In this document: piece by piece, positions 10,642 through 24,842 of the stretch
Layout of the letters: every line of letters starts with the position of its first letter
How positions within the stretch are numbered: position 1 is the first letter of the stretch
Origin: a virus
Strand: one strand, 5' to 3'
IMG/VR virus record: IMGVR_UViG_3300044825_002608
Span: 1-64,000 of that record
DNA length: 64,000 nt
The notes under the pieces: generated by a model
Seen by the model: only the letters and a program-made list of their open reading frames with translations
Database searches by the model: none
Told to the model about the DNA's origin: nothing
Made by a program: the position numbers and the translations under genes

Positions 10642-11970
10642 ATGAAAAGATTCAATCAATTTCTCAAAGAAGCAACCTCAGCTTCAGTCCAAGCAAAGCG
10701 ACTTGGACTTGTTGGCGATGGGCACGGAGGGTGGTATAATAGGGCCACTGGCGAATTTGAGGCTAAAACCGTGGGTGGTCAACTCAAGTATTTCAACAAG
10801 AATCAGGTGATTGGGGGGAAAGACCCTAAACAAGGGGAGTTTGAGAAGAACATTCCTTTGGGTTCTTCTGCCCCAGTTCAAGCACCACCTCAAGAGCAGG
10901 TTCCAATGAATCAGCAGGAACTTCCCCAAGAACCTGCTCCAGAGGAAGTTCCATTAGTAACTCCACCACCAGTTCCTAAAACTAAAGGAACTCTGACAAT
11001 TGCATTTGGAAGGTTTAATCCTCCAACTATTGGACATCAGCAATTGATGGATACTGCTGCTATGGCAGCAGAGGAAGATGGTGGAGACTACATTATTGTT
11101 CCTTCACGCACTCAAGATAAAAAGAAAAATCCTCTAGACCCTGATACTAAAATATCATTCATGAGGAGGATGTTTCCCGAACACAGTGGAAGAATTGTTA
11201 ATGACGTAAATTACAATACTATTTTTGATGTTCTGAAAAAAGCACATAATGATGGATACACTAATGTGAGAATTGTCGGTGGTGCAGATAGGGTAAAAGA
11301 GTTTGAAAAACTTTCTAATAATTATAATGGACAATTGTATCAATTTGATGTGATTGAGGTTTTATCTGCAGGTGATAGAGATCCTGATAGCAACAAAGGT
11401 GTAGAGGGTGTGTCTGCATCTCGACTTAGACTTGCTGCGGCAGAAGGAGATTTTGTAACCTTTAGATCTGGACTACCTTCTGATGTAAAAAATAAAGAAG
11501 CACTTGAACTTTTTGATTTTGTTCGTTGGGGGATGGGTATTCAAGAAATACAACAAGAGGGATATAACACTTGGGAAATTGCTCCTAAATTTGATCAACA
11601 ATCTTTAAGAGAAAATTATATTGATGAAAATATTTTTAGGATTGGAACTTTTGTCGAAAACTTGAATACTGGATTAAATGGAAAGATTATCCGCAGAGGA
11701 ACAAATTATTTAATTTGTGTCACTGAAAATGGTATGATGTTTAAATCCTGGATCAAGGATGTTAAAGAATCTTATTCTGAAAAAATGATGTCAAGAATGA
11801 TGCGACTTCCTGGAAAACCAAATACTTTAACAGGAACACTTGGTTATTTTAAATACGCATCTAAAATGACACCAGGTGCAATTGGAGTTGGTGCTGAGAA
11901 TTTGCAAACAGGTGGAAAACCTTATGGTGTTAATTTCATAAATAAACATAGGAAAAAAGTAAAGCGTTAA
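10642..11970 (+). CDS. Nucleotidyltransferase (NMNAT/cytidylyltransferase fold) with capsid-targeting-like leader
   Basis: 442 residues in three parts. Residues 1-15 (MKRFNQFLKEATS) resemble a T4 capsid-targeting sequence with an LKE protease site. Residues 15-110 are a Gly/Gln/Pro-rich linker. Residues 113-290 form a HIGH-type nucleotidyltransferase: LTIAFGRFNPPTIGHQQLM (TxGH), IVPSRTQDKKKNPL, VRIVGGADRVKEFEK and the C-terminal VSASRLRLAA equivalent of ISSTxxR. The C-terminal 150 residues are unassigned. Related phage enzymes make NAD from NMN or activate sugars/choline with CTP; which one applies here is not visible. Flanked by tRNA-Ala and a charged internal-type protein. Confidence 0.85.
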   Translation: MKRFNQFLKEATSASVQAKRLGLVGDGHGGWYNRATGEFEAKTVGGQLKYFNKNQVIGGKDPKQGEFEKNIPLGSSAPVQAPPQEQVPMNQQELPQEPAPEEVPLVTPPPVPKTKGTLTIAFGRFNPPTIGHQQLMDTAAMAAEEDGGDYIIVPSRTQDKKKNPLDPDTKISFMRRMFPEHSGRIVNDVNYNTIFDVLKKAHNDGYTNVRIVGGADRVKEFEKLSNNYNGQLYQFDVIEVLSAGDRDPDSNKGVEGVSASRLRLAAAEGDFVTFRSGLPSDVKNKEALELFDFVRWGMGIQEIQQEGYNTWEIAPKFDQQSLRENYIDENIFRIGTFVENLNTGLNGKIIRRGTNYLICVTENGMMFKSWIKDVKESYSEKMMSRMMRLPGKPNTLTGTLGYFKYASKMTPGAIGVGAENLQTGGKPYGVNFINKHRKKVKR

Positions 11971-11979
11971 ATTCTTCTC

Positions 11980-13263
11980 ATGAAAAAGCATATTGCTGAG
12001 GATCTTCCTGCAAGAAAGCACCCACAGGCACAATTATCTACTCAAAATAAAAAACCACAAGGTAAAGATTCTGGTAGGGATGACGACAAGGGTGGTGAAA
12101 AAACTCCAGAAGAAAGAGTAAGACAAGCAGTTTACGATATTCGCTATCGTGCAAGAAGAGAAAATCTTCCTCTTCGTTCTGCATATTCTCAATATATGCA
12201 GAATAGTTCAATGGCAGAATCTGAAAAGGCAGAAGTAAGATCAAAACTATTTGGTAAAGGTGGAATGCAAGCAGAAGATTTTTCTATGGATATGAAAAAT
12301 TCTGCTTCAAACGCAATGGCGAAGGCACTTTATAAAGTGTTTGTTGATAATCAACCAGAAGTTGTTGCTGAAGATAAGTTAAAAGAAGAATTAGAAAAGA
12401 GAAGTAGTGCATCTGGAGAAAGAAAATATAAAGTTAGAGTAACTGATAAGGAAAGTGGAGTTACTTATACCAGATACGCAACCCGTGAAAAAATCAGTAA
12501 ACTTAGATCAAAAGGACTTGAGGTTGAAATGACCGAATATGGTACTCCATATGAGGGTGAAAGAACCAAAGGTGAAAAGACTGCACAAGTTTTAGGCAAG
12601 AGAGCGAAAAAAGATTATGATGGTGATGGTAAAGTAGAAAGTGGTGCCAAGGAATATCGTGGTGCAGTTCACAATGCAATTCAGCGTAGAAAGGGTGGTG
12701 TAGCTGATGGCAAAGATACTTCTAATGTAAAAGAAGAATTTATTGGTGAAGTATCAAGAATGGCAAATTTGCCACAAACTGATGCACCACAGTCTGTAAA
12801 TCCTGATGCTAACAATACTCCAATTGATGTTCTTCCTGCAAATAGAAAAAATAAAGTAATTGTAAATCCATCAAATACAATTCTTGCACACACAGAACCA
12901 TCAGGTGAAACTATTTGCGAAACTGGTTATTCTAAGTTTCTTGCGATTCTTCATGAAAAAAAGATGACTAAGAGTGAAAAATCCAAAGAAAAAAAATTAA
13001 AGAAAAAGTATGATCCTTCCGAAATGAAGGCAAGTATGAAGAAACAATATGGTGCAGAAAAGGGTGAAAAGGTTTATTTTGCCACAATCCGTAAGCAAGC
13101 AATGAAAGAGGAATCTGCATGTGAAACTGGTGACAAAATGAATCTTAAAAAAGATGAAAAGATGGATCCTCGTTCAATTCCAACTACAATGAGTCTGGCA
13201 AAAATGGGTGCCAGATACAGAGGAATGAAAAATCCTATTTTAATGATATCTCCAGATAAATAA
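11980..13263 (+). CDS. Charged internal/prohead-type protein with EF-hand-like loop
   Basis: 427 residues, very rich in Lys and Glu, mostly predicted helical. It contains KKDYDGDGKVESGAKEYRG (near 210-228), a D-x-D-x-D-G calcium-loop-like motif that recurs in cyanophage structural proteins. The C-terminal region (KMTKSEKSKEKKLKKKYDPSEMKASMKKQYGAEKGEKVYFATIRKQ) is strongly basic, suited to DNA contact. It follows the nucleotidyltransferase by 9 nt and probably shares its transcript. Scaffold or internal head protein is an inference; no enzyme motif is visible. Confidence 0.72.
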   Translation: MKKHIAEDLPARKHPQAQLSTQNKKPQGKDSGRDDDKGGEKTPEERVRQAVYDIRYRARRENLPLRSAYSQYMQNSSMAESEKAEVRSKLFGKGGMQAEDFSMDMKNSASNAMAKALYKVFVDNQPEVVAEDKLKEELEKRSSASGERKYKVRVTDKESGVTYTRYATREKISKLRSKGLEVEMTEYGTPYEGERTKGEKTAQVLGKRAKKDYDGDGKVESGAKEYRGAVHNAIQRRKGGVADGKDTSNVKEEFIGEVSRMANLPQTDAPQSVNPDANNTPIDVLPANRKNKVIVNPSNTILAHTEPSGETICETGYSKFLAILHEKKMTKSEKSKEKKLKKKYDPSEMKASMKKQYGAEKGEKVYFATIRKQAMKEESACETGDKMNLKKDEKMDPRSIPTTMSLAKMGARYRGMKNPILMISPDK

Positions 13264-21283: not shown

Positions 21284-22666
21284 ATGAAGTCTTTTAGTCA
21301 ATTTTTGCAGGAATCATATTTAAGTGAGGAAGAGGCAGAACAACTCAGATTGTTAAAGAGAGATAATAAAACAGCATATAATCTTAGAAAAAATGTTGGA
21401 AATAGAGGTATTGCAGCAGATCCTACTCCAACACCAGCATCTAGAAGATTTTCTGCTGCTGCTCCAGAAGCACCAAAAGAATCTCCTGGTCAACAAGTAA
21501 TTAGACAAACTCCAAAACCACCGACTACAAAAGCACTTATTCCAGGTAAAGAAGGTGGTCCTTTAGCAGGTCGTGAAACTAATCCACAGGCACCTCCAGA
21601 ATCTATGATGAAAGGAGCATATGATGCTGCAAATAAACCTACAACGACTGCCAAACCTTCTTCTGCTAAAACTTCTGCAACTCCTAAACCTAGAACTACA
21701 GCATATCGTAATGCGGGTTTGGGTCGTGAAACTGTAAAGATACCTACTTCACCAGCATCAACTAGTAGTAGTGCTAGAAGAGAATTTACTCCAGAACGTG
21801 AAGCAGAAATTCGCCGTGAAAGAGCGGCAGCAAAAAAAGCAAGAGAAGCAGCATATGATGCCAAACAGTCTCCAGGCAAACTAGCAACAAGATCATCATC
21901 TTCTTTATCTACTCAAGCAAAACCATCTTCTTCTGCAATTGTACCTGCAGGAAAACAACCTTCCGGTCCAAAGGTAAGAGGTGGTTTTGGCAGACTTGCT
22001 GGACCAGGATTTGCAGCATTGGATACTGCATTGTCTGCTGCAGATGAAAGAGCAAAAGGATCTGGTTGGGCAAGATCATTAGCAAAGGGTGCCACAGTTG
22101 CTGCTGGAGGTGCTTTGGGAGGTACTTTAGGTGCAATTGGTGGTGGAGGTTTAGGTAGTGCTGCTTTAGGTCTTGCAGGTGCTTCAGCAGGAGGTGCGGC
22201 AGCAGGAAAAGCATTTGATGTTGCTGCAGGTGCTAACGCAAGAGAAAGAAAAGCAATGGCAACTGCAAATCGTCAGCGTCAAGCAGGAACCGCTGTTAAA
22301 GGTATTGGTGGACAAACTACATTCAGTCAGAAAAAACCAGGTGGTCCAGCATTCATGTCAACTGGTGTTGGTAAGCAAAGAAAAACTGTTGAACTTGCTA
22401 AAACTGGTGTAGTTCAAAGAGGTGGTCAATCAACTGCAGGACACCTTGCATTTAAGGGTGGAAAGGCAGTTTATAAGGCAGGTCCAAGTGCTCAATCACT
22501 TGCTAAAACTTCTTCTAATCCACTAGAAAGAATCGGTAGATCATTGTTTGCTGGTGCTTATAAAAAGCATGATGCAATGAAAGCACAACAAGCACTTCAA
22601 AAAGCAAGAGCATCAGATGCTGCCCGTAATAAAAAACTTGGAGTAAAAGCAAAACCAGCAGGTTGA
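21284..22666 (+). CDS. Ala/Gly-rich internal-type protein with capsid-targeting-like leader and glycine-zipper segment
   Basis: 460 residues. It begins MKSFSQFLQESYLSEEEAEQL, resembling a T4 capsid-targeting sequence with an LQE protease site. A Pro/Thr/Ser/Ala linker with a highly charged patch (EREAEIRRERAAAKKAREA) follows. Residues about 264-313 form a hydrophobic glycine-zipper-like stretch (GATVAAGGALGGTLGAIGGG, GLAGASAGGAAAGKAFD), the type of sequence that inserts in membranes or oligomerises. The tail is basic. I infer a packaged protein that might enter the membrane or cell on infection; no homologue recognised. Confidence 0.7.
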   Translation: MKSFSQFLQESYLSEEEAEQLRLLKRDNKTAYNLRKNVGNRGIAADPTPTPASRRFSAAAPEAPKESPGQQVIRQTPKPPTTKALIPGKEGGPLAGRETNPQAPPESMMKGAYDAANKPTTTAKPSSAKTSATPKPRTTAYRNAGLGRETVKIPTSPASTSSSARREFTPEREAEIRRERAAAKKAREAAYDAKQSPGKLATRSSSSLSTQAKPSSSAIVPAGKQPSGPKVRGGFGRLAGPGFAALDTALSAADERAKGSGWARSLAKGATVAAGGALGGTLGAIGGGGLGSAALGLAGASAGGAAAGKAFDVAAGANARERKAMATANRQRQAGTAVKGIGGQTTFSQKKPGGPAFMSTGVGKQRKTVELAKTGVVQRGGQSTAGHLAFKGGKAVYKAGPSAQSLAKTSSNPLERIGRSLFAGAYKKHDAMKAQQALQKARASDAARNKKLGVKAKPAG

Positions 22667-24341: not shown

Positions 24342-24401
24342 ATTGCTAGACTAGGTTTGTCTCCATTGAAGATAAATAATAGCTCTTTAAGATTATTAAT
24401 A

Positions 24402-24842
24402 ATGAGCTATGAGAATCCTTGGAGATATAATGGACAGACTTTTGAGTCTGATGATATTCAGGATCACTTTGGTTTTGTATACCTTATATCTTGTAGTGAA
24501 AATAATAGGAAATACATTGGTAGGAAGTTTTTTTGGTCTTTTAGAACTCCTCCAGGTAAAAAGAGAAGAGTAAAGCAAGAATCAGATTGGAAAAAATATT
24601 ATGGTTCTTGTCCTGAATTAAAAGAAGATATTAAAAAATACGGTAAAGAGTTTTTCAATAGAGAAATATTAAGTCTTCATAAAACAAAAGGTGAATGTAA
24701 TTATGAAGAAACTAAGCAACTTTTTCTAAATAATGTACTGAAAGAATCACTTGACGATGGGAGTCCAGCGTACTACAATAGTAATATACTCGGACGCTAC
24801 ATGCGAAAAGACTATGGAAACTTTGGAACAAACCCTACGTGA
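24402..24842 (+). CDS. GIY-YIG-like putative endonuclease
   Basis: 146 residues from ATG 24402; a TTG 15 codons upstream is less likely. The pattern FGFVYLISCSENNRKYIGRK fits GIY-YIG spacing (VYL...YIG), with R in the following helix (FFWSFRTPPGKKRRVKQESDWKKYYGS) and a late E (NREILSLHKTKGECNYEE). Such proteins nick or cut DNA and are common free-standing endonucleases in T4-like phages. A GATAAATA late-type element lies at 24371-24378. Overlaps the next small gene. Confidence 0.75.
   Translation: MSYENPWRYNGQTFESDDIQDHFGFVYLISCSENNRKYIGRKFFWSFRTPPGKKRRVKQESDWKKYYGSCPELKEDIKKYGKEFFNREILSLHKTKGECNYEETKQLFLNNVLKESLDDGSPAYYNSNILGRYMRKDYGNFGTNPT

Follow-up and report, generated by a model that had tools for sequence, protein, structure and literature searches.

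The internal proteins IPII and IPIII of phage T4 reportedly carry a capsid-targeting sequence, described by Mullaney and Black in 1996. The first ten residues of IPIII are enough for entry into the head; residues 4 and 7 exert the main control over targeting and residues 8 and 10 control processing, with gp21 cleaving after (L/I)xE (T4 head review, PMC9026906). Among cyanophages, an enzyme described as a cytidyltransferase/NMNAT (T4-GC190) has been detected by mass spectrometry in the virions of S-SM1 (PMC3037559), S-SCSM1 (orthologue ORF91; PMC9602691), and S-CREM2 (orthologue ORF154, with 3 unique peptides only; PMC10665884). The authors of the last two studies suspected packaging while allowing for carry-over, and for both phages it had already been proposed in print that an NMNAT carried by the virion acts on host NAD (PMC9602691, PMC10665884). 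Thus, cyanophage virion proteome papers kept finding the enzyme, and whether it was cargo or a contaminant stayed undecided.

Here, we analyzed a window of 64,000 nucleotides, which is part of a 99,657-base IMG/VR record and encodes a member of this enzyme family. We consider it likely that a T4-like freshwater cyanophage carries this protein inside its head and that the protein is targeted there, cut, injected, and active as an adenylyltransferase.

Results

Gene and protein layout

The ORF (10642-11970, plus strand) starts with ATG, encodes 442 amino acids, and has neighbors on the same strand. The N-terminus and the motifs GRFNPPTIGH and VSASR (residues 257-261) picked out by the sequence-only reading are all found in its translation, and Table 1 gives the layout. 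The nearest named relative, with 83% identity across the whole protein, is that of Synechococcus phage S-SRM01 (Kyanoviridae, from Serangoon Reservoir). Relatives of the enzyme were found in 533 phage records, mainly of cyanophages, a count that is independent of annotation because tblastn was used. The module following the leader is not confined to the enzyme; further S-CRM01 and S-CREM2 proteins have it, kinases among them, and most relatives of the enzyme keep it. Within the linker, pLDDT was low at residues 76 to 96 of the AlphaFold2 model. The small beta module is a stand-alone gene in some cyanophages (ORFs in S-PM2 and S-CAM3; also L342:3118-3309) and is often wrongly annotated as "ribonucleotide reductase alpha subunit."

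Table 1 Features of the adenylyltransferase gene and related genes in the 64-kb window
Feature	Position	Strand	Remark
Putative T4-type capsid-targeting leader MKRFNQFLKE, residues 1-10	10642..10671	+	gp21-like cut predicted after E10
N-terminal module QAKRLGLVGDGHGGWYNR..AKT..LKYFNK, residues 11-56	10672..10809	+	
Variable linker rich in Pro/Gln, residues 57-112	10810..10977	+	Mean column identity 0.38 (45-sequence alignment)
Predicted HIGH-superfamily adenylyltransferase domain, residues 113-300	10978..11541	+	Pfam PF01467, pLDDT mostly >90
Nucleotide-binding motif (H/T)xGH, GRFNPPTIGH, residues 123-132	11008..11037	+	
Second catalytic motif SASRLR (ISSTxxR type), residues 258-263	11413..11430	+	
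Small beta module, residues 317-380	11590..11781	+	phrog_4808 match at 316-376
Variable C-terminal tail, residues 381-442, plus stop	11782..11970	+	Mean column identity 0.44
Downstream gene, phrog_3326, without leader	11980..13263	+	Same place as T4-GC191 in P-SSM2
Second leader protein MKSFSQFLQES, 460 aa, low-complexity, Gly-rich stretch	21284..22666	+	Candidate packaged protein

Enzyme domain and substrate

The Pfam family CTP_transf_like (PF01467) matched residues 120 to 223 (30.8 bits; cut-off, 21), an NCBIfam domain model scored slightly below its cut-off, and PHROGs agreed on the adenylyl/cytidylyltransferase superfamily. In an alignment of 45 sequences, G123, F125, P127, P128, G131, H132, S258, and R263 were invariant, while position 129 was occupied by T in 36 sequences and by H in the other 9. 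A structure predicted from the single sequence reached a pLDDT of 39, and we used instead an AlphaFold2 model built from the alignment, which was confident over about residues 115 to 300. The nearest solved folds were about tied (PPAT, Z of 13.8; NadD, 13.0; NadM, 12.6); no cytidylyltransferase appeared among the best 50 structural matches listed, which leaves room for that fold. The best matches in a profile search of the PDB were NadR and NadM, all weak. The NMNAT equivalog models stayed far under their cut-offs (TIGR00482, 17.1 versus 112.45 bits; TIGR01526, 18.9 versus 341.15 bits). Since the key motifs are invariant, the protein is probably an active adenylyltransferase of the HIGH superfamily, as judged from sequence and model. 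Of the earlier label "NMNAT/cytidylyltransferase," the nucleotidyltransferase superfamily stands on family match, motifs, and fold, and adenylyltransferase is the better name within it.

As a lead only, we propose a role in nucleotide or cofactor metabolism, with NMN or NaMN as the foremost candidates. The alternative that the enzyme is packaged and injected and acts on a substrate other than NMN (phosphopantetheine-like, nucleic-acid-linked, or some other adenylylation) appears to us evenly balanced; it concerns the substrate only and is compatible with the explanation that we prefer. In its favor, PPAT was the best structural match, though tied, the NMNAT cut-offs were missed, and no NAPRTase/NadV partner (PF04095) was found in 8 related records, one of them (that of the window) partial, in a search that did match the control genomes. 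Against it, the PDB profile matches were NadR and NadM, and in one relative (L285) the domain is fused, in the manner of NadR, to a region resembling P-loop kinases, a lead that keeps the NAD reading alive.

Joint action with a ligase-like protein, DUF6267 (T4-GC71), is perhaps part of such a non-NMN role. Many relatives of the enzyme have DUF6267 beside or fused to them: it lies upstream of the enzyme in S-ShM2, S-SM1, and Syn9 and a few genes off in S-CRM01, it is fused to the adenylyltransferase in S-PM2, and some DUF6267 proteins bear the leader themselves. Its invariant K-x-D-G, E-G-x-V, and downstream K resemble motifs I, IV, and V of RNA and DNA ligases and other covalent nucleotidyltransferases (examples at L224:4695-5945, L295:10073-11266, and L121:5962-7155). 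A comparison of DUF6267 with PDB sequences gave no meaningful match. S-SRM01 and P-SSM2 have one DUF6267 each, distant from the enzyme gene, and the absence of a match in the partial record of the window counts against this link.

A T4-type leader at the N terminus

The first residues of the protein, MKRFNQFLKEA, resemble MKTYQEFIAEA, which opens both IPII and IPIII in the T4 record, as the sequence-only reading had noticed. All four positions mapped in T4 are matched, F4 and F7 for targeting and L8 and E10 for processing, a likeness far above chance, and LKE (residues 8 to 10) is indeed a site of the (L/I)xE type at which cleavage is predicted. In six-frame translations, the pattern MKx[FY]xxF[LIV]xE occurred 4 times in S-SRM01 (0.03 expected) and 2 times in the 99.7-kb record (0.012 expected), with 0 matches to the backward pattern in either. 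When eight whole phage genomes (1.56 Mb) were scanned with a degenerate DNA pattern encoding the leader, there were 14 matches, and its reversed control gave 0. Three genes were picked out in T4, namely ipII, ipIII, and the small ORF 61.1; the matches in six cyanophages included the start of this adenylyltransferase. Separately, a pattern match in S-CAM3 that is a 12-codon ORF was put down to chance. A chance origin of the leader was thus ruled out by expectation, by the reversed-pattern control, and by the conservation described below.

The genes of S-SRM01 include a prohead protease (Peptidase_S77, E value of 7.9e-37), a gp22-type core protein (T4_CASP, E value of 3.1e-80), and gp23. That major capsid protein has FLSE-A near residue 55, the same type of site as FLKE-A in the leader.

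When homologues were collected solely by similarity of the enzyme, 105 of the 114 distinct catalytic cores shared an ORF with the strict leader; an earlier count of 119/127 also took in loci found by the leader pattern. In the 45-sequence alignment, M1, K2, F4, F7, and E10 had identities of 0.93 to 1.0, and positions 5, 6, and 9 were variable (maxima of 0.36, 0.58, and 0.36). Start codons in this alignment were, wherever the sequence allowed, chosen to give the leader, which makes conservation in the leader columns partly a product of construction; 105/114 is the fairer figure. The linker (residues 57 to 112) diverges while the leader stays conserved, and in S-CRM01 g127 ca. 100 residues after the leader are gone, the 11-56 module included, which leaves the leader joined almost directly to the catalytic domain. 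In 3 homologues without E10, a new LQE or IQE lies three residues downstream, and these shifted (L/I)xE variants lend support to cleavage of the leader. Of 119 copies, 7 have V, F, or M as residue 8, which may be ill-suited to a protease of (L/I)xE specificity. As far as alignments can tell, the pattern is that predicted for a targeting and cleavage signal, related sequences not being independent observations. The leader is absent from relatives in S-PM2, MED4-213, S-CAM3, 121Q, and PA5oct, and a phage can therefore make use of the enzyme without packaging it.

Leader-bearing proteins in virions

The leader was found on all three orthologues detected in virions, those of S-SM1, S-SCSM1, and S-CREM2, and it is these, rather than the phage of the window, that provide the direct virion evidence. 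We scored the 219 CDS of S-CREM2 for the leader against the 52 published virion proteins. Exactly 3 had the strict leader, gp6 (annotated as a SAM hydrolase), gp14 (APH/ChoK-like kinase), and gp154 (this enzyme), and all 3 were virion proteins (P = 0.013, or P = 0.0022 among non-structural, non-lysis CDS, both values resting on three genes and hence on small numbers). Near-leaders were found in two further virion proteins, gp13 (MKDLHSFLTEQ) and gp12 (LRFASFMAEA, residues 17 to 26). Counted in this way, and two endolysins aside, all four "non-structural" virion proteins of S-CREM2 have a leader or near-leader. Of the two CDS with the leader in S-SCSM1, one is labeled a virion protein. The published proteomes and the association across the S-CREM2 genome bear out the packaging into virions that had been proposed from the sequence. 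As a side observation, the S-CREM2 virion protein labeled "CRISPR-Cas9" (L343 7704-10313) has LRFASFMAEA at residues 17 to 26 together with the DGHG module of the enzyme, and its label calls for a second look.

An ordinary cytoplasmic enzyme carried over from the lysate, with a leader serving another purpose, is an improbable account of these data. It was raised in both the S-SCSM1 and the S-CREM2 proteome papers, and the few S-CREM2 peptides and the several relatives without a leader speak for it; against it, three independent cyanophage virion proteomes detected the enzyme, and the leader is common to other S-CREM2 virion proteins and to T4 IPII and IPIII. NrdA and NrdB, examples of abundant replication enzymes, are also missing from the S-CREM2 virion list (PMC10665884). 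S-PM2, with neither leader nor virion detection, is a suggestive contrast only, as non-detection is weak and a second S-PM2 gene entry exists.

The leader on other proteins

The second leader ORF of the window (Table 1) has a homologue with the leader at S-SRM01 176324 and gave no Pfam or PHROG match. In an IMG/VR sample, MKSFxxFxxE had 83 matches, 74 of which opened a frame of at least 50 residues. The 71 complete proteins fell into 33 clusters, with 13 members belonging to this enzyme and 19 (with relatives) to a head-region family of ca. 105 residues; further clusters were DUF6267, methyltransferase-like, nucleotidyltransferase-like (a sub-threshold match to NTP_transf_2), and many unknowns. 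Single cases are also worth recording. T4 gp61.1 (NC_000866 18966-19130, L119; 54 aa) starts with MKTFKEFIKE and is a candidate for an unrecognized T4 internal protein. S-CRM01 139045 (L100:1501-1896; 131 aa) has the leader MKTFDEFLTEG and a sub-threshold match to GNAT acetyltransferases, and a 173-aa leader protein (L229:10526-11047) has a weak similarity to ADP-ribosyl/RNA 2'-phosphotransferases (E value of about 0.07). The family phrog_1742 (ca. 105 aa) has the leader and lies among head genes in S-SRM01 (126582-126890; L103:1501-1809) and at many IMG/VR loci; it is possibly a prohead core component.

These proteins bear on the idea that the leader is a core-binding element for head assembly and that the protein builds the prohead or condenses DNA rather than being mainly an injected effector. 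We regard this as unlikely: the leader also occurs on proteins of small size, on basic or low-complexity proteins, and on proteins encoded among head genes, and phrog_1742 adjoins a virion structural protein, but the catalytic residues of the enzyme are invariant, leaderless relatives are retained as stand-alone enzymes, and several enzymes bear leaders.

NAD and host defenses

The sequence-only reading had also suggested that the injected enzyme restores NAD or pre-empts NAD-depleting defenses, a claim not upheld by the failed NMNAT equivalogs and the lack of NAPRTase in the eight genomes. An injected NMNAT restoring NAD after NADase defenses has a compatible fold, other phages that rebuild NAD (Namat paper), and T4 internal proteins that counter first-line defenses (PMC9391042) on its side, yet NAPRTase/NadV is absent from the eight records, the NMNAT-specific models miss their cut-offs, and no connection to any defense was found, which makes it an unlikely reading. 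An NAD operon near the gene was considered and rejected, as the NAPRTase search was negative and the "NAD synthetase" neighbor is a homing endonuclease. For this neighbor (24357-24842 in the window), the label (PHROG, S-SRM01) is misleading, since Pfam identifies a SegE GIY-YIG homing endonuclease (E value of 5.9e-55).

Discussion

The match of the leader to the T4 tag, together with the presence of leader-bearing orthologues in virions, indicates that the enzyme is probably injected along with the viral DNA. By analogy with T4, F4 and F7 would bind the gp22 prohead core, and the protein would become enclosed as the shell forms; a gp21-type protease would then cut after L-K-E (residue 10), leaving the enzyme free inside the head. 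At infection, the freed enzyme would exit the head with the DNA, and the adenylyltransferase could act in the host as soon as infection begins, ahead of phage gene expression.

The presence of the enzyme in virions and a speculative NAD role are already known. Added here are a sorting signal on the enzyme and the predictive use of that signal, which join it to the capsid-targeted cargo proteins of T4. Because the leader matches the mapped T4 targeting signal, the question of cargo versus contaminant becomes testable. We found no report of a T4-type capsid-targeting tag on cyanophage enzymes, in a search that lay mostly outside subscription journals. We moderately favor the broader view that cyanophages and their relatives use the T4-type leader generally as a packaging signal, one that marks injected enzymes in a way readable from genome sequence; proposed members are this adenylyltransferase, the APH/ChoK-like kinase, the SAM hydrolase, and the DUF6267 ligase-like, methyltransferase-like, and GNAT-like proteins. 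If this rule is true, the injected enzyme sets of very abundant marine and freshwater phages would be predictable from sequence, the prediction would extend to proteins without known function, and it would become clear where and when a core cyanophage gene acts.

Compared with the described systems, the protein belongs to the same family (phrog_395) as the T4-GC190 cyanophage virion enzyme, for which the published work offers virion presence and NAD speculation; no description of the targeting leader came to our notice there. With PPAT (CoaD), NadD, NadM, and NadR, it shares the fold and the (H/T)xGH and SxSxxR motifs, but identities in structural alignments are only ca. 9 to 19%, and it falls under every NMNAT/CoaD equivalog cut-off. 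T4 Alt differs in being an ADP-ribosyltransferase (PMC9026906), although both would be enzymes packaged in the head and injected, as inferred by analogy for the cyanophage protein. Of the earlier comparison with T4, the T4-type packaged protein holds, while Alt gives way as the model to IPII and IPIII, which fit better. The latter have MKx[YF]xxF[LI]xEA at the same positions, and S-SRM01 has T4-type core and protease genes; the T4 proteins are small, whereas the cyanophage (Kyanoviridae) protein, for which cleavage is predicted, is large and multidomain and has an adenylyltransferase fold.
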